From assembly GCF_033845285.1 (NCBI RefSeq), contig NZ_JAWXCX010000001.1, positions 1,689,495-1,753,494 of the forward strand: a stretch of 64,000 bases of DNA. Reading direction: 5' to 3'. This stretch comes from Marinococcus sp. PL1-022 (GTDB taxonomy: Bacteria > Bacillota > Bacilli > Bacillales > Marinococcaceae). Every line of letters starts with the position of its first letter. The first letter of the stretch is position 1. The translations under genes and the position numbers were made by a program. Of the stretch, positions 25,683-43,841 are shown in pieces. The notes under the pieces were generated by a model. The model saw only the letters and a program-made list of their open reading frames with translations. It did no database searches and was not told the origin of the DNA.

Positions 25683-25696
25683 AAAGGACTCCCGCC

Positions 25697-28287: not shown

Positions 28288-28327
28288 CTTGAATGGCTTT
28301 CTGCCTTCCAATATCACCGGCGCATAC

Positions 28328-28362
28328 AAACAGCCCCGCTTTTCTCGTCAGCGGGGCTGTTT
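28328..28362 (+). terminator. Terminator of the carotenoid operon
   Basis: Perfect 13-bp stem AAACAGCCCCGCT / AGCGGGGCTGTTT with a 9-base loop, about 40 bases after the desaturase stop. Confidence 0.9.
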
Positions 28363-28379
28363 CAGTAGTAGGGTTATGA

Positions 28380-28650: not shown

Positions 28651-28778
28651 AACACCAATCCTTCTTATCTAAAGGATACCGATAACAAATTAATTACGCC
28701 TGCTTTTCGTGCCTGATAAAGTCGGATACTAACAACTTACTTTCTATCTAAAAAGAATATCGGATTATGTATAATCAT

Positions 28779-28820
28779 AAAAAAGGAATAGAAGCCCCAT
28801 GGGTGGGATACTTCTATTCC
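28779..28820 (-). terminator. Terminator of csbD
   Basis: Perfect 10-bp stem GGAATAGAAG / CTTCTATTCC with a 16-base loop, followed on the minus strand by a run of six T. Confidence 0.85.
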
Positions 28821-28826
28821 GGTTCA

Positions 28827-29003
28827 TTATTTGTTTTTAAAGTCGCCTTTTTTGTCCTGGGCGACGCCTTTAATCTTATCTTTCTTTCCTTCGCGCTGCA
28901 TTTTGGAATTATTTGTGGCGCTTCCCATCCGGTCTTTTGCTTCCCCTTTAACCTTGTTCACGTTTCCTTTTAGTTTGTCACCAAAACCATTTTTACTGCT
29001 CAT
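28827..29003 (-). CDS. CsbD family stress protein
   Basis: Small (58 residues), highly charged, helical protein of the CsbD family, function unknown but SigB-dependent in B. subtilis. The duplicated motif is visible: GFGDKLKGNVNKVKGEAKDR and KKDKIKGVAQDKKGDFK. ATG at 29003 is preceded by GGAGGGATC. A SigB-like promoter lies about 35 bases upstream. Lys/Gly-rich composition contrasts with the acidic neighbours. Confidence 0.85.
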   Translation of the reverse strand: MSSKNGFGDKLKGNVNKVKGEAKDRMGSATNNSKMQREGKKDKIKGVAQDKKGDFKNK

Positions 29004-29100: not shown

Positions 29101-29865
29101 TTAACTGGTAGACTGCTGCGGAGCCAGACTGTTCACAAATGCCTTTTTCATAACATTGGTGACAACCAATGAAACAAAACAGGCTCCTTTCTGCTGGGCC
29201 TGAAGCACGTCTTCCCGGGAGCTTGCAATCGTACCGATTGGCGTTTTCATAACTGCACCTTCCCGATACAGCCCGCTCAGCACCTCCTGCACTTCCGGAT
29301 GATCGGCTCCGTTTCTATACCCCATATTCACAGACAAATCCGTCGGCCCTAAAAACGCCATGTCGATGCCGGGAACGTCCATAATTTCCGTGAAATTTTC
29401 AGCCGCTTCCGGAGTCTCAATTTGAACGCTTATCAGGATCTGTTCATCGGACGCATTCATAAACGCTTCTCCCCCGTGAAAGCCGTAGCCCGCCGCCCTC
29501 ATTGAAAAAGCGGTGCCCCGTTTTCCATACGGGGGATATTTAGCTGCCTGCACCACCCTTTCTGCCTGCTCCCGGGAGTTTACCATCGGAACCTGAATGC
29601 CCAGTGCCCCCCGGTCCAACGCCTTTTGAATACTCGAAGGATCATAGCTTACGCGTATGATAGGCACCATTCCGGTTAACCGCGCGGACCTGATCATTTC
29701 CTCCATTTCTGCCCCGCTGTAGGCGCCGTGCTCATCATCCATAATAATAAACTCATAGCCGGCGTATCCGAGCATCTCTACGACCGCTGGCGAATAGAGG
29801 CTCGTAATAGCCCCCTGGGTCAGCTCATTTTTTTTGATCTTTTCCTTAATTTCGTTTTTCAGCAT
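29101..29865 (-). CDS. HpcH/HpaI family 2-oxo-acid aldolase
   Basis: Class II, metal-dependent pyruvate aldolase of the HpcH/HpaI superfamily, 254 residues; relatives split 2-keto-3-deoxy-sugar acids or 4-hydroxy-2-oxo acids to pyruvate and an aldehyde. Catalytic His is in FIIMDDEHGAYSG, a conserved Arg in VPIIRVSYD, the metal ligands Glu in SVQIETPEAAEN and Asp in FLGPTDLSVNMGY. GTAFSMRAAGYG resembles the RG(X)R-A-YG segment of the family. The ATG at 29865 has a better spaced GGAAG than the one at 29871. Last gene of the large catabolic operon; probable substrate a 2-keto-3-deoxy aldonate. Confidence 0.88.
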   Translation of the reverse strand: MLKNEIKEKIKKNELTQGAITSLYSPAVVEMLGYAGYEFIIMDDEHGAYSGAEMEEMIRSARLTGMVPIIRVSYDPSSIQKALDRGALGIQVPMVNSREQAERVVQAAKYPPYGKRGTAFSMRAAGYGFHGGEAFMNASDEQILISVQIETPEAAENFTEIMDVPGIDMAFLGPTDLSVNMGYRNGADHPEVQEVLSGLYREGAVMKTPIGTIASSREDVLQAQQKGACFVSLVVTNVMKKAFVNSLAPQQSTS

Positions 29866-29880
29866 TCTCATCTTCCTTTG

Positions 29881-30576
29881 TTAGTTTTCCTGAAGCCAAT
29901 AGGATAAAACTGCTGTGACTGCTTCCGGCTGGTCCAGAGGACTTAAATGGCCGCACTGGTCAATTAAAACTAACGCTGCCCCCGGTATTTTCTTCGCGAG
30001 ATCCTCCTGCATGGAAGGCCCGCACAGCGCATCCTGTCTGCCTGCCAAAACCAGGGACGGACAGTTTACAGCAGAAAGTGCATCCACCGCACCCGGGCGG
30101 GTTTTATTGGCTTCCAGCTGCCGGAAATAGCCTTCTTCTCCGACATCCCTACTCATTTGCCGAATCACTGCTTTAACGTCCTCACCAGCATGCTCCTGAA
30201 ATACAGCGCTGGGCAGGAACTGCTCCGAAACCATTTGTTCGAACCCGCCTGCCCGCACCTGTTTCTGCTGATTATTCCAAAGCTCTATCTGTTCTTTCGT
30301 CGGGGGATAGGGATTGGTATCGAGCAGCGACAGCTTATTCACCCTTTCCGGAGCCTCTTTCATTACCTCCATGGCCACGATGCCGCCAAGCGACAGTCCG
30401 GCAAGCGAAAAGGAGCCGGAAACACTGTTCAGTATCCGCTCCGCCATCTCCTTCACGGAGGCGTCCCGGGTAATGTCCGGAATGATGACCTCCCTATCAG
30501 CAGAAAAAGCACGGTATTGATGCTCCCATAGCGCCGAGGTGCACAACGTTCCGGGAATTAATACAAGAGGTTCCAT
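29881..30576 (-). CDS. Alpha/beta hydrolase
   Basis: Cytoplasmic alpha/beta hydrolase of 231 residues. Oxyanion region LIPGTLCTSALWEHQYR, nucleophile elbow SLAGLSLGGIVAM, acid in LAGRQDALCGPS and catalytic His in DQCGHLSPLDQPE. No signal peptide. Relatives act as esterases, enol-lactonases or C-C hydrolases. Between the HisD-family dehydrogenase and the aldolase, a lactonase-like step is plausible but unproven. Confidence 0.82.
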   Translation of the reverse strand: MEPLVLIPGTLCTSALWEHQYRAFSADREVIIPDITRDASVKEMAERILNSVSGSFSLAGLSLGGIVAMEVMKEAPERVNKLSLLDTNPYPPTKEQIELWNNQQKQVRAGGFEQMVSEQFLPSAVFQEHAGEDVKAVIRQMSRDVGEEGYFRQLEANKTRPGAVDALSAVNCPSLVLAGRQDALCGPSMQEDLAKKIPGAALVLIDQCGHLSPLDQPEAVTAVLSYWLQEN

Positions 30577-30602
30577 GCTGCTTTCCCCTCCTTTTGGAGT
30601 AC

Positions 30603-31859
30603 TTATTTTTCCAGCCGTACTTCTGCCGACAAACGGTGCCCTTCCAATCCTTCAATTTCTGATTGCTGCGTAGCGTGGGCGGCCAGATGCTGCGTGCCTC
30701 TGCCTGTAATTTCCTGGTGGGTGGCAACTTTCACAAAATTACCGACCCAGAGGCCGCCGGTGTAGCGGGCCCCCCGTTGCGTCGGAAGAGTGTGATTCGT
30801 CCCTGAGACCTTGTCCGAAAATACAACAGAGCTTTCTTCCCCTAAAAATATGGATCCGTAGTTACTTAAGCTGTTCTTGATCTCTTCGTACGATTGCAGG
30901 TGCACGTGCAGATGCTCGATAGCGTAGTCATCACACACGTCGATTCCCTGTTCGGTACTGTCTACAACAACAACCTCTCCCGCTTTTTCCCACGCCGTGT
31001 GGGCCGGGGAGTCTTCAGACAACTGCTTTAAATATTTTTCCACCTCGATGATCGTCTGGGCGGCCTGTTCTTCCGAAGTAGACACGAGAATCGCCCTCGC
31101 GTTTGGATCGTGTTCTGCCTGAGCCAATAAGTCGGCTGCGCACCATCTGGGATTTGCGTGCTCATCGGCAAACACGAGCACTTCACTCGGTCCGGCAATA
31201 AGGTCGATCCCCACCCTGCCGAAAACCTGTCTCTTTGCTTCCGCTACAAACCGGTTACCCGGCCCGGCAATCACATCGACTTCCGGTACCGTGTCTGTTC
31301 CTACAGCCATCGCTGCCACCGCCTGCGCTCCGCCTACGGCGAAAATATCCGTTACTCCGGAGCAATGAAGCCCGTACAATACCGCCGGGTGAATGCTTCC
31401 TTTGTAGTTTGCCGGACTGCACGCAATAATTTGTTTGGCTCCTGCCACTTTGGCAGGCACCGTCACCATCGGTCCGGAGGAAAGCAGCGGGAACCGTCCG
31501 CCCGGAACGTAAGCTCCCACCTTTTCCACCGGTATTACCCGGTGCCCCATCCGGATCCCTTCCCCAAAATCTTTATCGAGGGGCTGAAGGCATTCGAGCT
31601 GGGCTTCGGCAAAAGCGGTCACCCTATCTACTACCCTTTCGATCAATCGCTTCGTTTCATCCGACAGGGAAGCAATACCTTCATTCAGCTCTTCTTCGGA
31701 AATGCGAATCGGGCGTACCGAATCACTGAATTTTTTCTCGTAGCGTTTAACCGCTTCGTCGCCCCCCTGCTTTACGTCCTTGATAATTTGTTTGACAATC
31801 TGTTCTGTTTCTTCTGTCACTTCGGAAGAAATAGCATCAGCTTTCTTTAAATACTGCAT
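30603..31859 (-). CDS. Histidinol dehydrogenase-family alcohol dehydrogenase (catabolic paralogue 1)
   Basis: 418-residue member of the HisD family, which oxidises an alcohol to a carboxylate in two NAD-dependent steps. The zinc and catalytic residues of E. coli HisD have counterparts: Gln and His in LAQAEHDP, Glu-His in AIEHLHVHLQ, Asp in FSDKVSGTNHTLP, and His in [44 protein letters not shown] is the nucleotide-binding core (read here in two halves). It is not with his biosynthetic genes but inside a sugar-uptake operon, like HpsN-type sulfopropanediol dehydrogenases and other catabolic HisD relatives. Substrate unknown. A second paralogue is at 40495-41775. Confidence 0.85.
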   Translation of the reverse strand: MQYLKKADAISSEVTEETEQIVKQIIKDVKQGGDEAVKRYEKKFSDSVRPIRISEEELNEGIASLSDETKRLIERVVDRVTAFAEAQLECLQPLDKDFGEGIRMGHRVIPVEKVGAYVPGGRFPLLSSGPMVTVPAKVAGAKQIIACSPANYKGSIHPAVLYGLHCSGVTDIFAVGGAQAVAAMAVGTDTVPEVDVIAGPGNRFVAEAKRQVFGRVGIDLIAGPSEVLVFADEHANPRWCAADLLAQAEHDPNARAILVSTSEEQAAQTIIEVEKYLKQLSEDSPAHTAWEKAGEVVVVDSTEQGIDVCDDYAIEHLHVHLQSYEEIKNSLSNYGSIFLGEESSVVFSDKVSGTNHTLPTQRGARYTGGLWVGNFVKVATHQEITGRGTQHLAAHATQQSEIEGLEGHRLSAEVRLEK

Positions 31860-31882
31860 AAGCGCCTCCCAGGTTCTTTAAA

Positions 31883-32761
31883 TTATTTGACTGCTCCTGC
31901 ACTCATTCCTTTAACAAACTGTTTACGAACGATAAGCATAAATATAATCGTCGGCAGCACATAGATAATCCCTGCAGCGGCCATTTCGTTCCAGATAACA
32001 CCATTTTGGCCGACAAAGTAGGACAGGGCCACCGGTAGGGTTACTGCTTCTTCGTTCGTTAAAATGAGGGCAAACATATACTCGTTCCACGTGATGACAA
32101 AACAGAAGACGGCTGCAGTGATAATACCCGGCCGCGCCATCGGCAGAAGAATATGCCATATGACACGAAGCCTGCCGGCCCCGTCAATCATTCCGGCTTC
32201 CTCCATATCCTGTGGAATGCTGTCGATAAAGCCTTTAATCAGCCAGATAGCGTACGGGATGGTATGGCCGAGATTTACAATAATCAGTGCCATCGTGGTA
32301 TCCAGAATGCCCCAGTTCCGGAACATAATGAAAAACGGAATAACGTTGACGATTAAAGGGATAAACTGTGTCGCCAGAATCGCAAACATGAATACCTGCT
32401 TCCCCTTCATATCAAAGCGGGATATACTGTAAGCTGCGAGCACACTGACCGGCATCGTGATCAGCAGCGTGAAGAACACAACGATGGTACTGTTGGAGTA
32501 AAACCTGCCAAAATTATACTCTGCACTGAATATTCTGCTGAAGTTTTCCAGGGTCGGCTGAAAAAAAACGCTTAAGGAATACACTTCCGATACCGGCTTG
32601 AAGGCGGTTAAGGTGATCCAGAAAATCGGGAGGAATAAAAACGTTACGACGAGCAATACGCCAATGGTTTCCACCACACCCAGCGTTATTCTGCGTTTTT
32701 GCAGCGCTTTGGCTTTTTTCTCTTCTGTTGCGGGTGCCGCTGTAGTATTCATCAGTTCCAC
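31883..32761 (-). CDS. Carbohydrate ABC transporter permease (MalG type)
   Basis: CUT1-family permease of 292 residues with six membrane helices. The EAA loop, which docks to the ATPase, is EEAGMIDGAGRLRVIWHILLPMARPG. The N-terminus is cytoplasmic, about 25 residues, Ala/Lys-rich. It overlaps the preceding permease gene by ten bases. No ATPase gene is in the cluster; a shared MsmX/MalK-like ATPase encoded elsewhere must energise it, as for many Bacillus CUT1 systems. Confidence 0.93.
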   Translation of the reverse strand: MELMNTTAAPATEEKKAKALQKRRITLGVVETIGVLLVVTFLFLPIFWITLTAFKPVSEVYSLSVFFQPTLENFSRIFSAEYNFGRFYSNSTIVVFFTLLITMPVSVLAAYSISRFDMKGKQVFMFAILATQFIPLIVNVIPFFIMFRNWGILDTTMALIIVNLGHTIPYAIWLIKGFIDSIPQDMEEAGMIDGAGRLRVIWHILLPMARPGIITAAVFCFVITWNEYMFALILTNEEAVTLPVALSYFVGQNGVIWNEMAAAGIIYVLPTIIFMLIVRKQFVKGMSAGAVK

Positions 32762-33630
32762 TCGCCTCCTTTCACGAGTTTCCTCATGTAAATAAGAACG
32801 AAGCCGATCGTTATAATGGCGAGAATATAGCCAAGCGCCGCTCCGTAACCCATGTCATAGTACCTAAAGGACGTATTATAAATAAGGAAATTCAGCACTT
32901 CAGTGGAGTTCCCCGGCCCGCCGCTGGTCAACGTGACAATGGGGTCAAACTGCTTTAGTGCAAACATCGTCATTAAAATGGAAGCAATCAAAATGATCGG
33001 CTGCAGCATCGGCAGCGTTATCCGGAAAAGTGTCTGAAAGGCGGAAGCCCCGTCGATTTTTGCAGCTTCAAATACCTCTCCCGGCATGCCCATTAATCCG
33101 CTGATAAACATTAGACTCATGAAAGGCAGCCATATCCAGACAGCCACCGAAATCAGGGCTGCCATTGCCGTAGAAGGGTTACCGAGCCAGACTACATCTG
33201 ACAATGGAGGGATTAAAAATCCGACAATACGATCAAACAGTCCGTATTCCGGGTTCAGCATAAACCGCCAGGAATACCCTACCAGCGCCGGGCTTAAAGC
33301 AAAGGGAATAATCAATACAGCCCGTAGAAACGATAGATGCTTTTTTTCTTTACTCAGCAGCATGCCTACGGCTATTGCGGCTGCAATGGTGATAAAAACA
33401 GTGCTGATAGTGAATATGAGCGTGACAATGACGCTATTCCAGAAATTTCCGTCCGACATGGCTTGAAGGTAGTTATCAAACCCTACGAAAGGTCCTGTTT
33501 CGAGTGTTTCGGTTAAATCCCACTCATGAAGACTGATCCAGAACGATCGGACCAGCGGAAAAACAGTAATCGTTCCAACGATCAAAAGTGCCGGGGCGAG
33601 CAGTATATATTTGAAATACTTATTGGTCAT
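32752..33630 (-). CDS. Carbohydrate ABC transporter permease (MalF type)
   Basis: CUT1 permease, 292 residues, six hydrophobic segments. The EAA motif is in GEVFEAAKIDGASAFQ, TLFRITLPML following. SFWISLHEWDLTE near the N-terminus and TSGGPGNSTEVLNFLIYNTSF toward the C-terminus are typical of MalF-like sugar permeases (the latter reported here as a 20-residue-scale landmark at about 235-255). Pairs with the next permease and the upstream lipoprotein. Confidence 0.93.
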   Translation of the reverse strand: MTNKYFKYILLAPALLIVGTITVFPLVRSFWISLHEWDLTETLETGPFVGFDNYLQAMSDGNFWNSVIVTLIFTISTVFITIAAAIAVGMLLSKEKKHLSFLRAVLIIPFALSPALVGYSWRFMLNPEYGLFDRIVGFLIPPLSDVVWLGNPSTAMAALISVAVWIWLPFMSLMFISGLMGMPGEVFEAAKIDGASAFQTLFRITLPMLQPIILIASILMTMFALKQFDPIVTLTSGGPGNSTEVLNFLIYNTSFRYYDMGYGAALGYILAIITIGFVLIYMRKLVKGGEWN

Positions 33631-33678
33631 GCCTTTATCCTCCTCTTTGAGGCCGATGCTTATAAAACATTGTTAGGG

Positions 33679-33700
33679 AGCCCCCTCAAATGAGGGAGCT
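33679..33700 (-). other. Intercistronic hairpin between binding-protein and permease genes
   Basis: AGCCCCCTC and GAGGGAGCT form a 9-bp stem with one mismatch and a 4-base loop. There is no strong T run after it, so it is more likely an mRNA-stabilising or attenuating hairpin that keeps the binding protein in excess over the permeases than a full terminator. Confidence 0.5.
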
Positions 33701-33711
33701 GTACGGCTTTA

Positions 33712-35043
33712 CTATTCGTAATACCCTTCTTCCTCCAACAACTGTTCTACTTCCGCCGCCGCTTCATTCGTCGTTTTTTCTACCGGAGCGCCAGCTGCCA
33801 TGTCTGAAATAGCGCTGCTGATAATATTGGAGACTTCAGGCCATTCCGGAATCTTTGGAAGTGTCTGGGCGTTTCCGAATGCTTCTCCGCCTACTTTGAA
33901 CAAATCGTCGCCCGCTTCATTCAATTCTTCGTCATTAAAGTTTTGAGTCTGGGAAATGTTTGTCGTAAACTGATCCGACGGAGAATTTCCGTTCAGCGCA
34001 TCCAGGACCATGTCTTTTTCAAATTCCGGCTCACTGATATATTTCATAAATTCCCAGGCCGCTTCTTTGTTCTCTGAATCCTTCATCATGCCAAGCGGGA
34101 AGGTGGAAACGTTAGAGGTGCTTCCTTTTCCTTCCCATCCGGGTACAGTAGTAAAGCCAACATTGCCCCGCACCTCTTCTCCAGAGGAATCACTCAGGTT
34201 GAAGTCGGAATATACCCACCACCAGCCGACCCACATGGCGGAATTCCCCTGTTTAAAGTCGGTCCGGGCGTCCTGTTCCCCGAAGGACACAGATCCAGGG
34301 GAAGCAATTTCATCCTCCACCAGCAGGTCAACGTATCTCTGGGTTGCTTCAATGCCTTCTTCGGAGTTAAATACCGGCTTCATATCCTCATCAAAAATAT
34401 CGGATCCGTTGCTCCACAAGTAGGAGGTCCACATGTACATGTTCTGCCCGTTGTTTCCACCCTGGTAATAAGGGGAAATGGCTGACATTTCTGTATTTTC
34501 TGTAATTTCTTTACCTGCTTCCTCCAGTTCCGTCCACGTTTCCGGGGGATCGATACCTAAATCCTCAAAAACGTCCTTGCGGTAAAACATTAATTGCGCA
34601 TTCGCACGAACCGGCAGACTGTGCACTTCATCGTCAAAGGTGGATAAATTTAACGATGATTCCGGAAAGCGGTCAAAATTATAATCGTCTTCGGCAGCGT
34701 ACTCATCCAACGGCTCCAGAAACTGCTGCACGGACGGTCCCATCGTATCCAGGTACGTGACCAGATCAAAGGTTCCCTCCCCCGAAATTCCTTCGGTGGT
34801 GATACGGTCGAGCAGGTTATTGTAGGGTACCCCGATAAATTCCACTTCAATGCCCGTTTCTTCCGTGAATTCGTCACTTCTCGCTTCCCATGCATTAAAC
34901 TGGCCGATATCACCTTCGGTTACGGCTACAGTGACGGTTTCCCCCTCTAGATCCTCCGAGCCTGAGGAACCTCCACAGCCGCTGAGCGCCAGTGTCGACA
35001 CCATTGTTCCGGACAGTAGTAACAGTGATGGCTTTTTATACAT
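33712..35043 (-). CDS. Sugar ABC transporter substrate-binding lipoprotein
   Basis: CUT1-type extracellular solute-binding protein of 443 residues. The signal peptide ends in the lipobox LALSGCGG (Cys about residue 23) followed by a Gly/Ser linker. The mature chain has the family hallmarks WEARSDEFTEETGIEVEF, a DLVTYLDTMGP strand, and GKSAMWVGWWW-like sequence (here QGNSAMWVGWWWVYSDF). It is strikingly acidic. Start ATG 35043 follows GGGGG; an in-frame extension to 35112 would bury the signal peptide. Ligand probably an oligosaccharide or glycoside. Confidence 0.9.
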   Translation of the reverse strand: MYKKPSLLLLSGTMVSTLALSGCGGSSGSEDLEGETVTVAVTEGDIGQFNAWEARSDEFTEETGIEVEFIGVPYNNLLDRITTEGISGEGTFDLVTYLDTMGPSVQQFLEPLDEYAAEDDYNFDRFPESSLNLSTFDDEVHSLPVRANAQLMFYRKDVFEDLGIDPPETWTELEEAGKEITENTEMSAISPYYQGGNNGQNMYMWTSYLWSNGSDIFDEDMKPVFNSEEGIEATQRYVDLLVEDEIASPGSVSFGEQDARTDFKQGNSAMWVGWWWVYSDFNLSDSSGEEVRGNVGFTTVPGWEGKGSTSNVSTFPLGMMKDSENKEAAWEFMKYISEPEFEKDMVLDALNGNSPSDQFTTNISQTQNFNDEELNEAGDDLFKVGGEAFGNAQTLPKIPEWPEVSNIISSAISDMAAGAPVEKTTNEAAAEVEQLLEEEGYYE

Positions 35044-35115
35044 TTTTATGCCCCCTATTTTGTTTTCTTCTAACAAATCACTAATGAATATCCACCGCTG
35101 ACTGAGTGTCATTAC

Positions 35116-36471
35116 TTAATTGGCTGTCATGCATCGCTTTTCTCTCTGTTCATAAAAAGGTGTTAAAAACAATTTCTCGTATTCTGCAGCAAGCTGCAGC
35201 ACCGTTGCCTCCTGATACCACCCTCCAACTAATTGAATACCCACAGGCAATTGTCCACCGGAAAGACCCCCGGGCATCGATAGTGCGGGATGCCCTGTGA
35301 TATCGAATGGAGTCGTATACCTGGTCATCGCATCACTGATATCCTCACCGGTTGAAACGATGTTTTCCCCAAGACGCGGCGGGGTAATAGGAAGAGTAGG
35401 TGTTACTAAAATATCCACTTGTGTAAATATACTGGAAAGCCTGAGTGTCATTTCCTTCTTATGCTGAAGCGCTTCCAAATACTCTAAAGCAGAAGCATTT
35501 TCTCCCCGTTCAAACGTTGGGCCGATATCTTCTGCGTAATCATCAAGAGAGGCTTTCCCCTGATGTGCGAGTGTGACCTCCGGTGCAGCAATTATTCGGG
35601 CCAGGCTCATAGAATGACTAAAGAAGTTCGTATCCACCTCTATTAATTCAGCTCCCATCGAACGGCAATTCTCCAGAAACTGATCATATACCGTCCGCAC
35701 TTCCGCACTCATGCCTTCATTAAAGTATTGTTTAGGAACGCCCAGCTTGAGCGGCTTTTCCCCTATCTGTGGGTTTCCTGGAGCGTTTTTCTGCATGCCG
35801 TGAAGCAGTAGTGAAACATCCGATACATAATTAGCCATCGGCCCTGCATGATCCATTGAAGTGGATAAAGGAAAAATGCCTTCTGTGCTGATAAGTCCGT
35901 ATGTTGGCTTTAATCCGACGATTCCTGTACATGAGGCCGGTATTCTGATGGACCCTGAAGTATCTGTGCCGACGGAGCCGTAGCAAAAGCCGGCAGCTAC
36001 AGCAGCTGCCGAGCCGCCGCTGGATCCTCCTACCATGCAATCCTCGTGCCACGGGTTAAGAACATCTCCGTAAAAAGGATTTTTTGATGTGATCCCAAAC
36101 GCATACTCATGTAAATTGTTCTTTCCCAAAGTAATCGCGCTACGGCTTTTTAGATTCGTTACCACCTCAGCATCTTCTTCGGGAACATAATCCCTATCAA
36201 TCCAGGAGCCGTTCGTCGTTTTTGTTCCTTTAGTGTTAATAATGTCTTTGTATGAAACAGGGACGCCCGCCAATTCACTTTCGTGACGCCCCTCTTCAAA
36301 CGCTCTGGTTATGTTTTTTGCTTCATGTACTGCTTCATCTTCTGTAACGGTAATAAAGGAACGCAGTTCGTTCTCCCGGGCTTTTACTTTCTGCAGACAG
36401 TCTGTAATTATTTCCTCCGGGGAAAACCATTTATGACGGTATCCCTTGTGCATGTATTGGATGGAATTCAT
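35116..36471 (-). CDS. Amidase signature family hydrolase
   Basis: 451-residue amidase with the Ser-cisSer-Lys triad: Lys in VPVSYKDIINTKG, cis-Ser in GGSSGGSAAAVAAG, nucleophilic Ser in GTDTSGSIRIPASCTG. It resembles GatA in sequence but no gatC or gatB is adjacent and the context is catabolic, so it is more likely a hydrolase of an amide or carbamoyl compound. It is 21 bases after the tandem SnoaL-like gene and about 70 before the binding protein. Confidence 0.88.
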   Translation of the reverse strand: MNSIQYMHKGYRHKWFSPEEIITDCLQKVKARENELRSFITVTEDEAVHEAKNITRAFEEGRHESELAGVPVSYKDIINTKGTKTTNGSWIDRDYVPEEDAEVVTNLKSRSAITLGKNNLHEYAFGITSKNPFYGDVLNPWHEDCMVGGSSGGSAAAVAAGFCYGSVGTDTSGSIRIPASCTGIVGLKPTYGLISTEGIFPLSTSMDHAGPMANYVSDVSLLLHGMQKNAPGNPQIGEKPLKLGVPKQYFNEGMSAEVRTVYDQFLENCRSMGAELIEVDTNFFSHSMSLARIIAAPEVTLAHQGKASLDDYAEDIGPTFERGENASALEYLEALQHKKEMTLRLSSIFTQVDILVTPTLPITPPRLGENIVSTGEDISDAMTRYTTPFDITGHPALSMPGGLSGGQLPVGIQLVGGWYQEATVLQLAAEYEKLFLTPFYEQREKRCMTAN

Positions 36472-36492
36472 AATACCTCCCTCCAGCGATTG

Positions 36493-37773
36493 TTATGAAA
36501 CACCGGTAAAGTTACCATCCTCAGAGGAAAACTGGTTGTCGCCATCCTCATTGCTCTCTTCCATTTGAGCATAGATCTGGCGCAGCACTTCCATGCCGTC
36601 AAACAGCATCCATTCCTCCTGAATTTTTTTATTGCGGACTTTAAAATGGTTCATCCCGTTGATTTCCACTGCTTTTCCGCTTGGGGAACCGAAATAGCCG
36701 ATACCTCCGTGCACCCCTTGAATTCTCCAGCGTACAGCTACATCCCAATCATCATCCGAGCCTTTTTTGTTGCAGGTCACCCGGTCGAGCAGCACCTTTG
36801 CGTTCGGCACAGAGGCAAACAGATTAATGAACATGCCCTGGATTTCACTGTGTCCGACCATATCTTTATTGCACACGTAATGAATCACGGCATTGCTTTC
36901 GTAAAAATTCTTTATATAATTAAACGAGCGCCGTTCCCACACTTTGTTAAACATTCCGAGTATAAAATCACCAATTTCAAAATCTTCATGCTGTGGGATA
37001 TATTCCTTTGGCGGCAGTCCTTCTTCTGCCGACTGGGACAGGCTGAACTGCAGGTTTGGAGCCAGCTGCTTTGTCTGCTTGGCGGTACGCTTCGCTATTT
37101 CCACCGGATCATAGCCGAGCTGCTGCACGAGGTGGTGCGTATCCATCACGAGCCATTCTTCATATATTTTATTTTCATGAATCAGGCAGTCGGCAGTGGT
37201 CCGGAAAACGACTCTTTTTCCTGTCGCAGGACCGTAAAGGGTATCACCAATATTTGTTGCTACGGACCGGCCGCGGTGGGAGGTGAAAAAGCCTTCTTCA
37301 TCATTGCCGGACCATACTATGCTCCAGCCAAGGCCTGTACGGTCAGGGAATGCCTGCAGGGTTTGCAGCGTGCCCGAAATTACTTCGTTGACACCGTGGC
37401 TGTTAATCAGCCCGCGGTGGATCTGCACACCGTGACTGTACGTATCATAGATAAGCCCGATGTCCTTCTCCTTCCAGATCTGCCGGGTGATCCGTACAAT
37501 ATAGTCAACGATATTGTGATAATCCCCGTAGCCCTTCATCGACTGCTTTTTGATTTCATGCTCCGGGATACGCAGGTAATCCTCATCATCCCGGGCGTCC
37601 ATCGCATTTACTTCACTGCCGTCAGCGTAATGGATCAAATGCTTGTGAGCGGTATCCTTACCGCCGCCCTTGGCTTCAGAACCCTGCTTTTCCTCCTGTG
37701 CCGGCTTTTCGTTCCCGGCTGTCAGAGACTCTTCCTGCTTTTTTCCTGTTTTGGCTGCATTTTTGTTTTCCAT
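36493..37773 (-). CDS. Tandem SnoaL/NTF2-like domain protein
   Basis: 426 residues. The first 60 are charged and low in complexity (Lys/Glu/Gly). Two NTF2-like domains follow, about 75-215 (ending TTADCLIHENKIYEEWLVMD) and 245-400 (ending HFKVRNKKIQEEWMLFDG). The repeated IYEEW/IQEEW motif shows the duplication. Such domains act as dehydratases, isomerases or ester cyclases, or only bind ligands. Start ATG 37773 has AGGAGGG six bases away. I know no characterised protein of this architecture; it lies in the catabolic operon between cupin and amidase. Confidence 0.72.
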   Translation of the reverse strand: MENKNAAKTGKKQEESLTAGNEKPAQEEKQGSEAKGGGKDTAHKHLIHYADGSEVNAMDARDDEDYLRIPEHEIKKQSMKGYGDYHNIVDYIVRITRQIWKEKDIGLIYDTYSHGVQIHRGLINSHGVNEVISGTLQTLQAFPDRTGLGWSIVWSGNDEEGFFTSHRGRSVATNIGDTLYGPATGKRVVFRTTADCLIHENKIYEEWLVMDTHHLVQQLGYDPVEIAKRTAKQTKQLAPNLQFSLSQSAEEGLPPKEYIPQHEDFEIGDFILGMFNKVWERRSFNYIKNFYESNAVIHYVCNKDMVGHSEIQGMFINLFASVPNAKVLLDRVTCNKKGSDDDWDVAVRWRIQGVHGGIGYFGSPSGKAVEINGMNHFKVRNKKIQEEWMLFDGMEVLRQIYAQMEESNEDGDNQFSSEDGNFTGVS

Positions 37774-37852
37774 CAAACACCCTCCTGAGCATTGGTTGTA
37801 TCTCGCTTGCCTATAGACTACCGTCTATGCAACTCTCTTATTATATATTTTT

Positions 37853-38458
37853 TCACTCTCCCATCTTCAGTTTTTCTGCCATTTCTTTTTCTCTTTCCTT
37901 AAAATCCTCCGGCGGCACCATTTTGCCTTTTTCGTCTGCATTAAACCCGTATTGGGAGGCTTTTTTCATTACGTCCGGCGCCCAGTAGGGATCCTTCCCT
38001 TCAAACACTTCATGTTGCTCGAGCACTGCAAACAGCCAGGCATCCTCATCGCTTACATTTTCCAGACCGCGGTACAGCCCTTTCGGCAGTGTAATCAAAT
38101 CCCATTCTTCCAGGATGGCTTCGCCTTCAATCTCGTCCGGACCTTCACCCCAATAAAAACGCCATTTTCCGCTCAGCGGCATGAACGATTCAATATAATC
38201 GTGCGTATGAAAGGCCGGTCCATTTCCGGGCGGCGCCTTGACCATTCCAATCTGAAAGCCGTGCGGCTCCGTAATAATCGGGTTATATTCAGGATTTTCG
38301 CTTGCTGTATCCCCGATCACCGCGTAATTGATCCGGTTGTGGCCCGGGATAATGCTGTCGATAAACATCAGCGGAATGCCCTGCGATTTCATATCCTTAA
38401 ATCGTACAATCCGTTCCTTCATTTGTTCATTAATGCTTTTTGTCGAGTTTTCATTCAT
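37853..38458 (-). CDS. Cupin domain protein
   Basis: 201 residues. Central cupin with motif 1 GPAFHTHDYIESFMPLSGKW (His-X-His...Glu metal ligands, plus Gly) and motif 2 EEWDLITLPKGLYRGLEN, in which the usual second-motif His is replaced, so metal binding may rely on three residues. Long charged C-terminal helix. It resembles cupins found in sugar and aromatic catabolic clusters; could be an isomerase, dioxygenase or sensor. Part of the LacI-controlled operon. Confidence 0.78.
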   Translation of the reverse strand: MNENSTKSINEQMKERIVRFKDMKSQGIPLMFIDSIIPGHNRINYAVIGDTASENPEYNPIITEPHGFQIGMVKAPPGNGPAFHTHDYIESFMPLSGKWRFYWGEGPDEIEGEAILEEWDLITLPKGLYRGLENVSDEDAWLFAVLEQHEVFEGKDPYWAPDVMKKASQYGFNADEKGKMVPPEDFKEREKEMAEKLKMGE

Positions 38459-38507
38459 GTAATAGTCCTCCTAAGACTCTGTTGTTTTTTTTATTATTGG
38501 AAGCTTC

Positions 38508-39272
38508 TCACCAGACAGTCCAGCCGCCATCGACGAGGATCGTCTGCCCGGTAACCATATCGGAGGAAGCCGAACTGAGAAATGCTACGGCTCCGAAAAG
38601 GTCCTCTGGACGGGCCAGCCTGCCAAGCGGAATTCTGGCAAGCACTTCCTCTTTAAACTCTGTATCTTCAAACATTTTTTCTGTCATCGGTGTTTCGATA
38701 AAGGTGGGGGCTACAGCATTAACGTTGATACCGTCAGAAGCCCATTCAATGGCCAGCGACTTGGTCAGCTGCGTAATTCCTCCCTTGCTCGAGCTGTAGG
38801 CTGCGCGGTTATAGTAACCGACAAAAGCCATCTGGGAGGACATATTGATAATTTTTCCGTGTCCTGCCTCACGCATCCATTTTCCGGCCGCCTGACAGGC
38901 AAAAAAGACGCTTTTTAGATTAATGTCGTGGATGCGGTCCCACTGCTCCTCCGTCACCTCTTCTGCCGGCGCCGGAATGTTCGTGCCGGCATTGTTCAGA
39001 AGCACGTCAATCCGGCCAAACTGTTTGTAAATACTCGCGAACAGCTCATCCAGATATTCGATGTTGGTTAAATCAAACGGGAATGGCTCAGCGGATCGGC
39101 CCTTCTCCTGAATCATCCGGGCCGTTTCCTGTAAAGCCTGCTCATCCCGGGCTACCAACGCCACGTTGGCGCCGGCCTCAGCCAGCATGACCGCTATTTC
39201 TTTTCCAATGCCTTTATTAGCACCCGTAACGACGATCGTTTTCCCTTCTAAAGAGAATAGATTAGCGCTGAT
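38508..39272 (-). CDS. SDR family oxidoreductase with apparent ATC start codon
   Basis: Classical SDR of 254 residues: nucleotide motif TGANKGIG, NNAG, catalytic Ser in MSSQMAF, Tyr-X3-Lys in YSSSKGG, and the closing VDGGWTVW. The nucleotide-binding motif lies upstream of the first ATG (39188), so translation from there would be non-functional. The reading frame begins GCC ATC AGC GCT AAT, and a perfect AGGAGG sits seven bases before ATC. There is no ATG, GTG or TTG between that site and the TGXXXGIG motif. Either ATC is used at low efficiency or the start codon was lost and the gene is dying. First gene of the catabolic operon. Confidence 0.75.
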   Translation of the reverse strand: MSANLFSLEGKTIVVTGANKGIGKEIAVMLAEAGANVALVARDEQALQETARMIQEKGRSAEPFPFDLTNIEYLDELFASIYKQFGRIDVLLNNAGTNIPAPAEEVTEEQWDRIHDINLKSVFFACQAAGKWMREAGHGKIINMSSQMAFVGYYNRAAYSSSKGGITQLTKSLAIEWASDGINVNAVAPTFIETPMTEKMFEDTEFKEEVLARIPLGRLARPEDLFGAVAFLSSASSDMVTGQTILVDGGWTVW

Positions 39273-39288
39273 GGCTTTTCCTCCTTTT

Positions 39289-39336
39289 TTGTATACGTAT
39301 TCAAAACACTCAAAAATTTTATGAATACGTATACAG
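39289..39336 (-). promoter_or_regulatory. Double LacI-type operator in the promoter of the catabolic operon
   Basis: Two palindromes, TTGTATAC|GTATTCAA (39289-39304) and ATGAATAC|GTATACAG (39321-39336), have centres 32 bp apart, about three helical turns. They match 15 and 13 of 16 positions of the site upstream of the second HisD gene. A possible -10 TAAAAT lies between them on the minus strand with TTGCCT 19 bases further upstream. Confidence 0.75.
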
Positions 39337-39355
39337 TAACAGGCAAGCGTTTATT

Positions 39356-39369
39356 TGTAAACGCTTTCT
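39356..39369. promoter_or_regulatory. CcpA cre-like site
   Basis: TGTAAACGCTTTCT matches 13 of 14 positions of the cre consensus TGWAANCGNTNWCA. It is also half of a wider inverted repeat (AAGCGTTTA / TAAACGCTT, 39346-39367). It lies just upstream of the double operator, so the operon is probably under catabolite repression as well. Confidence 0.6.
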
Positions 39370-39385
39370 CCATTTTTAATTTTAT

Positions 39386-40393
39386 TTACGTTGTACTCCG
39401 CTCAATTAAAATTGGTTCAATAACCTCGTCCGTATAGTCTTCCTGCTTTTCTCCGGCGGCCAATAAATTAATTAATTTTTCCACTGCCAAAAGCGACATA
39501 CGTTCATGCTGCTGCGAAATAGTCGTTAAATCTATTAAAGGATTCGCCGCAAGATTGATATTATCAAAGCCAATAACTGCCAAATCTCCCGGCACGTGCA
39601 CCCTCATCGTTTTACAGCTCTCCATGATGGCAAGCGCCATCTGGTCTGAAGCGGCAAATACAGCTGTCGCCGGATCCGGGCCCTGCATTATTTCTTTTAT
39701 ATAATCCGAAATCGCTGTATTCTCTAAATCACCAACGTAAACGAGCCCAGGATCATAAGGAATATTATATTCTTCGAGCTTGTTTTCGTAGCCAATATTT
39801 CGTTCATACAGAGTCGAATACTTTGTTAATAATGTTGCAAACCCGATTCGTTTATGTCCTTTTCCGATTAAATGCTCCATCGCCATATGAGCGCCCTTAA
39901 CGTTATCGAGCACAAAGGAATGACCCTTTTTAGAATACGTTTTTGTATTATACAAAACGACAGGCGTATCCGAGGCGTACAGCCGGTGGATTTCTTCTTC
40001 GTATCTTTCCACGGATCCTACAATGATCCCTTCCACGCGCTTTCCGATCAGCGTATCAATCGCTGTTTTTAAATTATCACTGCTGTGATTGGTATCTGTT
40101 AATATGACGTCATAGCCTTTTTTTCTGGCTTCGGTGATAATAATTTTCGCGGTTTCCGCAAAAAAGGTATTTGCTATGTCCCCGACAATTAAGCCAATCG
40201 TTCCGGTTTTTCGTTTGTTTAAACTTCTCGCGACCTCATCCGGCGTAAAGCCCATCTCATCTATCGCGCTTAACACCTTCTGCCGTGTGGCCTCCTTGAT
40301 ATAAGGATAGTTGTTAATTACTCTTGAAACCGTTGCCTGGGACACGCCTGCTTTTTTGGCTACATCGTTGGACGTCACCGTTAGCTTCACCAC
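39386..40393 (-). CDS. LacI family transcriptional regulator
   Basis: 335 residues. The N-terminal HTH is TSNDVAKKAGVSQATVSRVI followed by the hinge helix region DEVARSLNKRKT; residues 60-335 are a periplasmic-binding-protein-like sensor domain (GTIGLIVGDIANTFFAE, then AVFAASDQMALAIMES and DLAVIGFDN). It starts with GTG at 40393 after AAAGGTGA. It lies between the two operators' operon and the second HisD gene; four matching palindromes, one in its own promoter, mark it as the local autoregulated repressor. Confidence 0.93.
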   Translation of the reverse strand: MVKLTVTSNDVAKKAGVSQATVSRVINNYPYIKEATRQKVLSAIDEMGFTPDEVARSLNKRKTGTIGLIVGDIANTFFAETAKIIITEARKKGYDVILTDTNHSSDNLKTAIDTLIGKRVEGIIVGSVERYEEEIHRLYASDTPVVLYNTKTYSKKGHSFVLDNVKGAHMAMEHLIGKGHKRIGFATLLTKYSTLYERNIGYENKLEEYNIPYDPGLVYVGDLENTAISDYIKEIMQGPDPATAVFAASDQMALAIMESCKTMRVHVPGDLAVIGFDNINLAANPLIDLTTISQQHERMSLLAVEKLINLLAAGEKQEDYTDEVIEPILIERSTT

Positions 40394-40422
40394 TTACCAA
40401 TCACCTTTTCATATTCCCGAAA

Positions 40423-40446
40423 TTAGTTGAATGCGTATTCAACTAA
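40423..40446. promoter_or_regulatory. LacI-type operator upstream of lacI-family gene
   Basis: A 24-bp palindrome with core TTGAATGC|GTATTCAA, extended by TTAG and CTAA at its ends; only the pair nearest the centre but one is mismatched. Thirty bases upstream of the regulator's GTG, implying autoregulation. Confidence 0.78.
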
Positions 40447-40494
40447 CCTTAAATTAGCACATTTATCCATATAGTTCAATTTTCATGCCGGTGG

Positions 40495-41775
40495 TCAGTC
40501 GGTGGTGCTGTATCTTTGCACACGTAATGATGCCTGAGCTTTATGCCCCATGAAGCCTTCGAGCTCGCAAAGACGTTCGGCGTATCTGCCTATTTCTGCA
40601 CTGGCTTCCTCCGTTACGCGCTGATACGTGCAATTTTTCAAGAACTTGCCTACCCATAGACCGCCGGTATATTTTGCCGCCTGCTTGGTCGGAAGTGTAT
40701 GATTGGTCCCGATGACTTTGTCTCCGTAAGCGACATTCGTTTCTGGCCCGAGAAAGAGAGCTCCGTAGTTTGTCATGTTTTCCAGAAAGTAATCCGGGTC
40801 CCTGGTAAGAACCTCTACGTGTTCATAGGCGAGCTTATCCGCTTCACGAACCGCTTCTTCCACATCTTCCACGACGATGATAGAACCATTATCACGCCAC
40901 GCCTGCTCTGCGACTTCCGCTGTCGGGAGTGTTTTTAGCTGACGGGCAATTTCCTCCTCCAGAGACTCGGCAAGCGATTGGGACGTTGTAATAAGGGCGC
41001 CCGGGGACGTTGGTCCGTGCTCTGCCTGACCGAGAATGTCGGTAGCCACCATTTCCACGTCGGCCGTTTCATCAGCAATCACAAGCGTTTCGGTCGGGCC
41101 TGCAAATAAATCAATCCCCACTCTGCCGTACAGCTGCCGCTTGGCTTCCGCTACAAAGGCGTTGCCCGGTCCGACAATCATATCCACCGGCTGAATCGTT
41201 TCTGTTCCGACTGCCATGGCGGTCATTGCCTGCACTCCTCCCAGCAGATAGATTTCATCCGCCCCGGCCATATGCATAGCTGCCACCGTAGCTGCCGGTA
41301 TTTCCCCATTACTCGGGGGCGTACAGGCGATCACTCTGTCGACCCCGGCGACCTTCGCTGTCACAATACTCATATGGGAAGAGGCCACCATCGGATAGCG
41401 TCCGCCCGGGATATAGCAGCCTACGCTGTTCACCGGGATGTTTTTATGTCCTAAAATAACGCCGGGCCGCGTTTCCACTTCAATATCCTGAATGGACTCC
41501 CGCTGATGCCGGGCAAAATTTTGAATTTGCGACTGCGCAAAGGTAATATCATCAATCACCTGCTGCGGCAGTTCATCCATCACCTGCTGAATGGTTTCCG
41601 TCGACAGGCGGAACGATTCCGGCGACCATTTGTCGAATTTCTCAGAAAGCTCCCGGACCGCTTCATCCCCCCGCTGCTCTACATCCTGAATGATCGCCTG
41701 CACCGCCTGCTGAACCTTCGTGTCCGCCTCCTGTTTCTCCTGATCGCTTTTTCCTCGTTTCAGATAAGTGGGCAT
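40495..41775 (-). CDS. Histidinol dehydrogenase-family alcohol dehydrogenase (catabolic paralogue 2)
   Basis: 426 residues, second HisD-family enzyme of the island and clearly homologous to the copy at 30603-31859, but not a recent duplicate. Catalytic and metal residues are conserved: [30 protein letters not shown] and [16 protein letters not shown] at 41775 follows GGAGG. Its promoter carries the best palindrome of the LacI set and a cre-like site. Having two such dehydrogenases suggests two successive or parallel alcohol-to-acid oxidations in the pathway. Confidence 0.85.
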
Positions 41776-41794: not shown

Positions 41795-41845
41795 TTGAAT
41801 ACGTATTCAATATAAACCAAACTTTTTCTTTTGTAAACGCTTTAT
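41795..41845 (-). promoter_or_regulatory. Promoter with perfect LacI-type operator and cre-like site, second HisD gene
   Basis: Minus-strand promoter: -35 TTTACA, 17 bases, -10 TATATT (41809-41814). The perfect palindrome TTGAATAC|GTATTCAA at 41795-41810 overlaps the -10 and the expected start site. TGTAAACGCTTTAT at 41832-41845 matches 12 of 14 cre positions and overlaps the -35. A repressor and CcpA would both block RNA polymerase here. Confidence 0.78.
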
Positions 41846-41867
41846 TAAATAGCCTGACTGCTTTTTT

Positions 41868-41918: not shown

Positions 41919-43841
41919 TTAACCCCACACCTTTATTTCATTTTTACCAGCCTGCAGCTGCCCAATCGGTCCCAGCACGTCGGCTTTGGCTTTTTGCTTG
42001 CCTAAGAAGTCCTTCTCTATCCGGAGCTCGCTTCCGTCCGGATTTTCAAAATCCGCATCCACGATACGCGCCCGCTCCAGGTTTCCTGTATGCTTTATCT
42101 CCCCGCGCATTTGTTCAAATTCACCGGGCAGTTCACAGGACAGATACACCTCATCCCCTTTTTCAATTATCGTCAGCTGGGGATCAAAAGCGTCGTTAGT
42201 TAATGCCTCATGCTCCCCTTCAAACGGAACCGCCCCATTAAAGTAAGCATTATGATTAATGTAGACCGGCTGCTCTATACTGTGGAACGCTTCATGGTCC
42301 AAGCCGACCTGATCCACCTTTTCGATATATTCCTCAAGCGACGCCGTGTATCCGTTAAAATGGGACGTGCCTACATCATTCAAATCCGATTTTCCTACAA
42401 ACATGTTATTGTAAAAACGATCGTCTCCGCCGTAGACAGGCGCAAATCCTGATACCTCCGTGCTGTGGGGCACGTGATACGGTGTTGCCCGGTCCAGCAT
42501 CTTCTTGTGCACCATTTTGCCCGCAATCAGATTGTTAACGTAAGCTCCTCCCTGTGCATGATTATCCAGGGCATAGTCTGCCGTTAAAATATTATGGTCC
42601 ACCACATACGGTCCGCTGCTCACTTCTACAAAAAGATCACGGCTGTTTCTGTAAAATAGATTTTTGCTTACTCTCGTGCCCTGGGTCTGCCAGTCGAGCC
42701 ATACCCCAAGCGAGCAGTCATGGATACGGTTGCTGTGAATCTGGACATCAATCGCTGCATGCAGTTTAATTCCGGCGATTTCGTGGCCAAAAAACTCCCG
42801 CTTTAATGCGATATTATAAATGTGGTTATGATAGATCTCGCTGAACACGCAGCCCAGATGACCGACCACCCCGTTCTGGCCGCAATCATAAATGGTGTTA
42901 TCACGGATAATGTGAGAGCCGATGCGCTCCTTGCTCCAGCCAATATGCCGGGCCATAAACACAGATTCCAGCTGGTACTGGTAGCCTGGTTTGTCCTTTC
43001 TTCTCGTCCGGTAATTGTCCCCGGTGGACGCTTCCTTTCCAATACTGATCGCACTGCATTTAGAATCGTGAATCACATTGTTTTCAATAATCCACCCCTT
43101 GCTCCAGTTCGGCCCGATCAATCCCGGCTGATCCGCCGTCGGAGGCGTCCACGGCGTTGCTGCCTGGGCCATTTCAAACCCCTGCACCGTGATATAGTTG
43201 AGCCCCGTCAGTTCCGGATAAAAGCAGGCCTTCCGCACGTTTATTTCCACCAGCTCTTTATTCGGGTCAGCGCCCTGAAAATTGGCGAAAATCGTCGTAT
43301 GGCTGCTGTCTGCTTCCGCATACCAGCGGTACGTCGTCTGCTCCGGACGGTGGACAGGAACAGTCGTTTTTGTCCAATGATCCAAAACCTCGGTCTGCTT
43401 TTCGGGATTCAGCACTTCCGCAAAGGTTTCTGCTTCGTAAAAAGACATTCCGTTTAAATACACATCACCCAGATGCCTGCCTGGATTGTGAACGATCCAG
43501 TCCCCGAATATTTTTTCCGTAAATGGATTGTAGTCGCCAAATAACGTGTTTGGGACGTGTGCCTTCCAGACCGTTCCCTCCACCTGTTCCCAGTAGTCAA
43601 TTTGTTCCGAACCTTTAATTACTGCTTTTTCTCCAGGAGCTGCGGTATATATAATTCTCCGGGTCTCACTCCGGCCGCCATTTCGCGGTTTCACCCATTC
43701 TCTGTATTCACCTTCATGCACCACTACGGTGTCTCCCGCGGTGGCTAATGAAGCTGCTCTATTAATTGTTAAAAAAGGTTTTTCCACTGTGCCGTCGTTT
43801 TTGTCAGAGCCGTTTTTTGCTACATGATATTCAAGTGCCAT
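41919..43841 (-). CDS. GH120 beta-xylosidase (right-handed beta-helix)
   Basis: 640 residues without a signal peptide, so cytoplasmic. The sequence closely follows, from memory, Thermoanaerobacterium saccharolyticum XylC, the founding GH120 enzyme: EYHVAKNGSD at the start, GFEMAQAATPWTPPTADQPG, HDSKCSAISIGKEA, GHEIAGIKLHAAIDVQIHSN. The expected nucleophile and acid/base are Asp383 (GVWLDWQTQG) and Glu406 (DLFVEVSSGP), adjacent to Asp382 and Glu405 recalled for XylC. It releases xylose from xylo-oligosaccharides or xylosides taken up into the cell. Divergent from an AraC regulator and upstream of HisD2; no xylose isomerase or xylulokinase is nearby. Confidence 0.9.
   Translation of the reverse strand: MALEYHVAKNGSDKNDGTVEKPFLTINRAASLATAGDTVVVHEGEYREWVKPRNGGRSETRRIIYTAAPGEKAVIKGSEQIDYWEQVEGTVWKAHVPNTLFGDYNPFTEKIFGDWIVHNPGRHLGDVYLNGMSFYEAETFAEVLNPEKQTEVLDHWTKTTVPVHRPEQTTYRWYAEADSSHTTIFANFQGADPNKELVEINVRKACFYPELTGLNYITVQGFEMAQAATPWTPPTADQPGLIGPNWSKGWIIENNVIHDSKCSAISIGKEASTGDNYRTRRKDKPGYQYQLESVFMARHIGWSKERIGSHIIRDNTIYDCGQNGVVGHLGCVFSEIYHNHIYNIALKREFFGHEIAGIKLHAAIDVQIHSNRIHDCSLGVWLDWQTQGTRVSKNLFYRNSRDLFVEVSSGPYVVDHNILTADYALDNHAQGGAYVNNLIAGKMVHKKMLDRATPYHVPHSTEVSGFAPVYGGDDRFYNNMFVGKSDLNDVGTSHFNGYTASLEEYIEKVDQVGLDHEAFHSIEQPVYINHNAYFNGAVPFEGEHEALTNDAFDPQLTIIEKGDEVYLSCELPGEFEQMRGEIKHTGNLERARIVDADFENPDGSELRIEKDFLGKQKAKADVLGPIGQLQAGKNEIKVWG

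Follow-up and report, generated by a model that had tools for sequence, protein, structure and literature searches.

A putative LacI-controlled catabolic regulon of Marinococcus with two HisD-family dehydrogenases and a tandem SnoaL-fold protein

The 64,000-nucleotide stretch of the Marinococcus sp. PL1-022 chromosome analysed here (the window; C1:1689495-1753494 of a 3.2 Mb genome) carries, between positions 29101 and 41775, twelve minus-strand genes that probably form a single regulon. A run of ten, in the order short-chain dehydrogenase/reductase (SDR), cupin, tandem SnoaL, amidase, CUT1 binding protein, two permeases, HisD1, alpha/beta hydrolase and HpcH aldolase, lies downstream of lacI and of a second HisD-family gene, HisD2, and all the named genes but the cupin pass their Pfam cut-offs. 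We favour, with a probability of about 0.6, the reading that this LacI-controlled regulon catabolises an imported amide-bearing sugar- or polyol-like compound. The reading draws on gene content, four operator-like sites, co-conservation in other genomes, intact zinc and catalytic residues in the dehydrogenases, and the exchange of individual enzymes for others of like chemistry. The parts are all known at the family level, and their combination is that of a LacI/CUT1 catabolic regulon. An earlier note on the same DNA had listed these genes and an operator common to them, all of which were found.

Common control is suggested by the LacI-family regulator itself (39386..40393; PF00356 and PF13377), which joins a LacI helix-turn-helix to a sugar-binding domain, together with putative palindromic, central-CG sites at the promoters. 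A perfect operator, TTGAATACGTATTCAA (41795..41810), stands upstream of HisD2, TTGAATGCGTATTCAA (40427..40442) upstream of lacI, and TTGTATACGTATTCAA (39289..39304) at the promoter of the SDR-to-HpcH run, with a weaker operator-like pattern match, ATGAATACGTATACAG (39321..39336), also upstream of the SDR run. With up to three mismatches allowed, TTGAATACGTATTCAA matched the window at these four places (39289, 39321, 40427 and 41795), against a mean of 0.37 in 100 shuffles, none of which reached four. Across the whole genome TTGNATACGNATNCAA has three sites, all within the locus, and a backwards-read control pattern has none. The palindrome NGAATNCGNATTCN is present in all 24 Bacillota loci that carry the cluster (82 sites; mean of 20 shuffles 0.55), and TGNATACGNATNCA, with one strand read, gives 32 sites in 14 of the 24 (shuffle mean 0.1). 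As gene order varies among these loci, the operators precede SDR, an iron-containing alcohol dehydrogenase (Fe-ADH), cupin, binding protein, amidase, SnoaL or HisD2; one operator type is found before a pair of Fe-ADH and aldehyde dehydrogenase (ALDH) genes in Peribacillus-type loci and before HisD2 in the window. Upstream of both the SDR promoter and the HisD2 promoter, sequences of the AAAGCGTTTACAA type (~39350-39365 and ~41835-41850) look by eye like CcpA cre sites.

The genes also travel together. A query with the tandem SnoaL protein returned 25 loci in genome contigs, of which 22 carry the greater part of the cluster in varying order and orientation; a check of co-conservation in other genomes had been set beforehand as the refuting test, and co-conservation is what it found. 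Later counts leave out Cohnella loci L021 and L022, from which most of the set is absent, and a short Anaerolineae contig (L026) that holds SDR, SnoaL, binding protein and one permease. The 22 loci, the window (its row entered by hand) and a Priestia plasmid locus (L029) make up the 24 Bacillota loci, in which matches above 150 bits were counted. HisD1 (in two pieces in L018) and the alpha/beta hydrolase occur in all 24, HpcH in 23 (in L027 as a tblastn match near the edge), SDR in 22, the amidase in 19 and the binding protein in 16, the remaining eight having an MFS gene in the stretch. With the genes kept together in 22 of 25 loci and the operators conserved with them in 24 of 24, the proposal that the twelve genes act as one LacI-controlled catabolic unit is supported. 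In Peribacillus frigoritolerans T7-IITJ (L018 11676-12553) several cluster genes, HisD1 included, are split, possibly through assembly errors.

The distribution of the module is patchy, and the module is accessory. A SnoaL match at E 0.001 was obtained in 6 of 61 relatives, the source genome included, although two of the six matches are weak, one being a remnant of 33 residues and the other having 24% identity; at E 1e-40 there was a match in 2 of 398 Bacilli genomes, again including the source. In the 19 kb of congener G009 that was searched, what is left of the module is an SDR frame, still open (93%) and with an operator-like site, next to fused remnants of the cupin and SnoaL genes and of what looks by eye like the beginning of the amidase (L073 10700-13866); neither lacI nor HisD2 was found between the SDR frame and a GH120 gene. 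The GH120, AraC and SDRb genes beside the lost module are 92-96% identical to those of the window (GH120 itself 92%). Because the congener keeps the GH120 side while the module is lost, that side is a flank, and the GH120 gene of the window (41919-43841) was left out of the unit; nor was a GH120 match seen next to the complete cluster in relative G022 (L071), in a stretch that reaches only ~1.6 kb upstream of HisD2. The earlier note had offered a glycoside as one of two forms of the imported compound, a view that finds no support here, since no glycosidase was seen co-conserved. On the opposite flank, a short AraC-family-like frame at ~28480-28650 ends early and appears truncated; Peribacillus and Kurthia plasmid AraC regulators match it, and positions 25000-29000 compared with plasmids gave four records, all AraC-family regulators.

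The gene set recurs, in shuffled order, in Bacillota, Alphaproteobacteria, Pantoea and Deinococcus. At E 1e-5 the SnoaL protein was found in 58 plasmid records, with Alphaproteobacteria, Pantoea, Vibrio and Deinococcus among them, and 19 plasmid loci were examined (L029-L047). Nine hold two HisD copies (one cut at the edge, L037), seven hold one (split in L042) and three none. The amidase-signature hydrolase (35116..36471; PF01425, E 2e-101, 340.7 against a gathering threshold of 27 bits; GatA and indoleacetamide-hydrolase models below cut-off) is present in nine of the 19 and a carbon-nitrogen hydrolase of the nitrilase superfamily in three, all Deinococcus, with neither in seven and both in none; the nearest models of the latter enzyme are formamidase and aliphatic amidase, below cut-off. 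The HpcH/HpaI-type class II pyruvate aldolase (29101..29871; PF03328, E 1.8e-27, 96.5 against a gathering threshold of 25 bits; nearest PDB entry 2vws, YfaU) behaves in the same way, with HpcH in six loci, RraA in nine, neither in four and both in none. In each of these swaps an unrelated family of like chemistry takes over, and the best-supported of the predicted steps are therefore hydrolysis of an amide and aldol cleavage of the pyruvate type (or decarboxylation); the earlier note had anticipated both the hydrolysis and the cleavage. The importer of the plasmid loci is of CUT1 or MFS type, and Labrenzia has CUT1 plus a TRAP set beside HisD2. Ruegeria and Octadecabacter carry a MetE-type protein and extra SnoaLs, with no amidase-signature gene in the stretch; an 'amidohydrolase' lies at the stretch edge of the Ruegeria locus. 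In Vibrio pelagius (L044) and Roseomonas (L045) the genes next to SnoaL encode sarcosine oxidase subunits or an N-methyltryptophan-oxidase-like protein, hinting that this branch may handle amine-containing substrates.

The same comparisons bear on a different account, in which two or three older modules merely lie side by side, HisD2-SDR-aldolase serving a sugar acid and SnoaL-ABC-(HisD1-amidase) another compound. HisD2 and SDR do occur together, at times accompanied by RraA or a different annotated aldolase, where the stretch has no SnoaL, just as SnoaL and ABC genes occur where it has no HisD (L030, L044); some loci have two LacI genes (L020, L024, L027, L032, L036), and HisD2 (E 1e-150) is found in 26 of the 398 Bacilli genomes, the source included, making it far commoner than the SnoaL protein with its two. 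However, the joint occurrence, with varying order, is repeated in Bacillota, Deinococcus, Alphaproteobacteria and Pantoea, and one operator family runs through the Bacillota loci. We consider the joining of independent modules unlikely, if far from negligible, and prefer a single catabolic regulon.

The two dehydrogenases that give the predicted regulon its character are HisD1 (30603..31859; motif GRFPL; PF00815, 469.6 bits) and HisD2 (40495..41775; motif GRYPM; PF00815, 486.6 bits), both zinc/NAD enzymes of the HisD family whose nearest solved relative is HpsN (39-47% identity). The start of HisD2 was placed at ATG 41775 because a longer TTG frame would, by eye, run through the operator. In the CpHpsN numbering, taken with the HpsN motif G-R-Y-(A/S)-H and its His126 from PMC11382572, the zinc ligands Gln248, His251, Asp352 and His411, the catalytic Glu318 and His319, and Lys353 are kept in 62 of 62 HisD1/HisD2 rows, while five true HisDs, all from Bacillota, have Tyr at both 353 and 126. 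A tree of 69 rows, limited to sequences of 381 to 539 residues that score at least 251 bits (which drops the fragments of L018, L037 and L042), splits the five true HisDs from the other 64 rows (62 HisD1/HisD2 types and two HpsN) with support of 100/100; a third, separate hisD elsewhere in the genome groups with the true HisDs. HisD2 forms a clade of 31 rows (100/99), and the proteobacterial and Deinococcus 'HisD1' proteins fall on lines of their own that are joined with less certainty, with a long-branch warning at HpsN and at the Deinococcus HisD1. The conserved zinc and catalytic residues support the proposal that both enzymes oxidise an alcohol to an acid. The locus suggests that, besides HpsN and the enzymes of histidine synthesis, there are two or more catabolic HisD groups, for which Lys353 combined with L, M or I at 126 would provide a simple residue test.

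Kinship with HpsN raises the possibility that HisD1 or HisD2 is a DHPS 3-dehydrogenase (HpsN) and that the locus degrades 2,3-dihydroxypropanesulfonate (DHPS) or a sulfo-sugar. No solved structure is closer to either protein than HpsN, which falls with HisD2 and apart from the true HisDs (on the branch with the warning), and Lys353, which in HpsN contacts the sulfonate, is universal among the 62 rows. The HpsN-specific His126 is however found in 0 of 62, L, M or I taking its place, and Pfam identified no desulfonating enzyme among the twelve genes, to which that scan was confined. A sulfonate pathway is consequently improbable, and we set it aside on the missing histidine; the comparison with HpsN drawn in the earlier note holds for the family and breaks down at this residue.

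Further support for an oxidative role of HisD2 within the proposed regulon comes from its replacement. Among the 24 Bacillota loci, six have HisD2 only, 14 have Fe-ADH/ALDH (13 both, L011 the ADH alone), none has HisD2 with either, and four have neither (L007, L015, L025 and L029); the genomes of the first three of these hold HisD2 (74-84%) elsewhere, and for L029 the search covered the plasmid only. Of four ADH/ALDH genomes searched, three were without such a HisD2 and one had a stand-alone copy. Because Fe-ADH and ALDH replace HisD2 in Bacillota, the alcohol-to-acid assignment is supported for this enzyme in a second way, and the nearest models of the pair, lactaldehyde reductase and lactaldehyde dehydrogenase (both below cut-off), would fit the conversion of a 1,2-diol to a 2-hydroxy acid by HisD2. 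HisD2 was also followed into 24 stand-alone stretches (20 from the 25 other HisD2 genomes, plus four more), in 23 of which it entered the clustering of open reading frames. LacI of one cluster is present in 21, SDR in 13, a 3HCDH-family protein in 11, a GntP/CitMHS-type transporter cluster in nine and a D-galactonate-type MFS cluster in four, the transporter names resting on one Pfam-scanned member and one NCBIfam-scanned member, the latter below cut-off; the strict operator was found in 22. Since these operons carry sugar-acid-type transporters, the intermediate that HisD2 oxidises is most likely a sugar acid.

Several points weigh against the favoured reading. None of the window genes reaches the NCBIfam cut-off of a named sugar-acid equivalog. 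Both the amidase and the carbon-nitrogen hydrolase are absent from the stretch in L030, L040, L041 and L043-L046, so an amide is not common to all systems, and the near-identity of the two S. medicae copies (L034 and L042) makes the plasmid counts partly non-independent. The exclusion between HisD2 and Fe-ADH/ALDH has a Fisher p of 0.0016, a value that ignores the relatedness of the Peribacillus rows. Halobacillus (G005, L006) has ADH and ALDH in the cluster plus a stand-alone HisD2, and relatives of Fe-ADH and ALDH adjoin stand-alone HisD2 in L055, L077, L078 and L084 (ALDH alone in L079 and L080); the two systems are therefore not exclusive everywhere. Finally, both dehydrogenases pass the TIGR00069 hisD cut-off of 243.8 bits (454 and 483.8), a model that fails to separate the groups, and because Leu is the usual HisD residue at position 126 according to PMC11382572, that position alone cannot distinguish HisD1, which has Leu, from HisD.

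These last two observations would suit extra histidinol dehydrogenases in a locus that scavenges histidinol, imidazoles or amino alcohols, the last of which the amidase could release. Such a role is opposed by the grouping of the separate hisD with the four other Bacillota HisDs, apart from the 64 rows at 100/100, by residue 353 (Tyr in five of five true HisDs, Lys in 62 of 62 HisD1/HisD2), and by the presence of a Lac-type regulator and a CUT1 importer, and we regard it as quite improbable. HisD-family proteins receive the name 'histidinol dehydrogenase' by default, as does every annotated copy in the 60 plasmid records listed out of 122.

For the sugar- or polyol-like substrate that we prefer, entry would be through the CUT1 importer, made up of an SBP_bac_1 solute-binding protein (33712..35112; PF01547, E 5.9e-49) and two MalF/MalG-type permeases (permease 1, 32752..33630; permease 2, 31883..32761; both PF00528, with sugar-permease models below cut-off). 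The nearest PDB chains of the binding protein are trehalose/maltose- and other sugar-binding proteins; many such chains match alike, and the PDB matches single out no specific ligand class. Pantothenate, mycosporine-like amino acids, sugar amides and other amides were considered as candidate substrates; nothing favours one, and none is claimed. The Pfam scan found no ABC ATPase in the ten-gene run. Bacillota CUT1 systems commonly share one ATPase, and a UgpC/MsmX-type ATPase is encoded at C1:2577400 (50% identity to Martelella UgpC).

The tandem SnoaL protein (36493..37776) matches PF07366 in two stretches, and its AlphaFold2 model (mean pLDDT, the per-residue confidence score, 78.6) has two NTF2-like domains, the fold being confirmed by Foldseek. 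The best Foldseek E-value was that of Lsd19 (2.3e-8), at 9% identity and a root-mean-square deviation of 19.4 Å over 331 columns; many single-domain SnoaL-fold chains align at 2.4-3.5 Å, and the chemistries of the matched enzymes differ. Most Bacillota tandem SnoaLs also have a conserved DGNFTGVS-like C-terminal tail after a variable, low-confidence linker. Matches to polyketide cyclases and epoxide hydrolases, and the fold itself, would be expected if SnoaL were the cyclase of a polyketide-like or other secondary-metabolite cluster; yet no polyketide synthase or carrier protein is present among the scanned window genes, and both the solute importer and the pyruvate-type aldolase are components of catabolism, which makes a biosynthetic cluster highly improbable.

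Three further proteins complete the predicted catabolic regulon. The single-domain cupin (37853..38458; Cupin_2, 21.4 against the 27.2 bits required) has an HxHxxxE motif and an Arg at a position of the second motif that is usually His; its model (pLDDT 73.4, low-confidence stretch 27-66) has a fold matching generic cupins, and no PDB sequence relative was found at E 1. The alpha/beta hydrolase (29881..30576) has, by eye, a GLSLGG nucleophile motif and resembles 3-oxoadipate enol-lactonase (PcaD) in Pfam and NCBIfam scans, below the PcaD cut-off. The SDR (38508..39272, start approximate; PF13561) is KduD/GolD-like (KduD 212.9 of 338.85 bits). Its first ATG (39188) is internal, and the frame extends up to a ribosome-binding site and an ATC codon at 39272. 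No ATG, GTG or TTG stands at the expected start; the window, congener G009 (L073) and Sinobaca (L025) all have ATC after an AGGAGG-type site, and relative L071 has TTG at the position of the window's ATC (39270-39272). Conserved AUC initiation is possible.

From these parts a route can be proposed. The CUT1 protein would bind an amide-bearing sugar- or polyol-like molecule for import, powered by a shared MsmX-type ATPase encoded elsewhere, and the molecule or a product of it would release LacI from the operators. The amidase would free ammonia or an amine; HisD1 and HisD2 would each convert a CH2OH beside a hydroxyl (or amine) to a carboxylate, with two NAD and four electrons; and the SDR would oxidise (or epimerise) a secondary alcohol. 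An isomerisation, elimination or bond cleavage might fall to the tandem SnoaL and the cupin, the alpha/beta hydrolase could open a lactone or ester, and HpcH would split or decarboxylate a 2-keto acid, giving pyruvate or hydroxypyruvate and an aldehyde. The earlier interpretation is thus partly supported: the catabolic unit, amide hydrolysis, aldolase and oxidation have backing, and the glycoside, the sequence of steps and a dehydration by SnoaL or the cupin found none.

We put forward tentatively a bolder proposal: a new route, spread over at least three phyla, for an abundant amide-bearing sugar-like natural product, with the tandem SnoaL as the key bond-breaker and HisD-family enzymes, not the known sugar-acid dehydrogenases, making the acids. 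If true, the SnoaL fold would gain a role in carbohydrate breakdown. The claim that no described pathway has this gene set met no contradiction in the open-library literature, whose scope leaves out most subscription journals, which makes such a silence weak evidence. With its recurring neighbours, swaps and operator, the system lends itself to direct functional tests in cultured Bacillaceae, and an answer would put right many 'histidinol dehydrogenase' annotations.

Comparison with known systems places the locus among several partial relatives. Lsd19, a biosynthetic tandem SnoaL-fold epoxide hydrolase, has two SnoaL/KSI-like domains in one chain, and the window protein agrees with it at most in single domains. 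The glucarate/galactarate and L-rhamnonate pathways end in GarL or YfaU, HpcH/HpaI aldolases, and share with the window a sugar-acid logic and a pyruvate-forming class II aldolase. The window HpcH is nearest to YfaU and GarL but lies far below the equivalogs: the nearest named NCBIfam models are GarL, YfaU and HpaI, the best scoring 144.1 of the 393 bits required, and the enzyme is not GarL by that model (139 against 406.75 bits). The window further differs in its two HisDs, SnoaL and amidase, and no enolase-superfamily or IlvD/Edd dehydratase was seen among the twelve genes. With the HpsN cluster of Cupriavidus pinatubonensis (hpsRNOUPsuyAB) it would have in common a HisD-family four-electron oxidation of an alcohol to an acid outside histidine synthesis, with the same zinc ligands, Glu-His pair and Lys353 and with other oxidoreductases and a transporter alongside; unlike that cluster, it lacks His126 and has no SuyAB among its genes, and adds a CUT1 importer, amidase, SnoaL, cupin, lactonase-like hydrolase and aldolase. 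The stand-alone LacI-HisD2-(GntP/CitMHS or galactonate-type MFS)-3HCDH-SDR operons of Bacilli have no SnoaL, amidase, HisD1, cupin or HpcH among their matches and use secondary transporters in contrast to the CUT1 importer of the window, with which they share HisD2 (71-84% identity), SDR, LacI and the strict operator.

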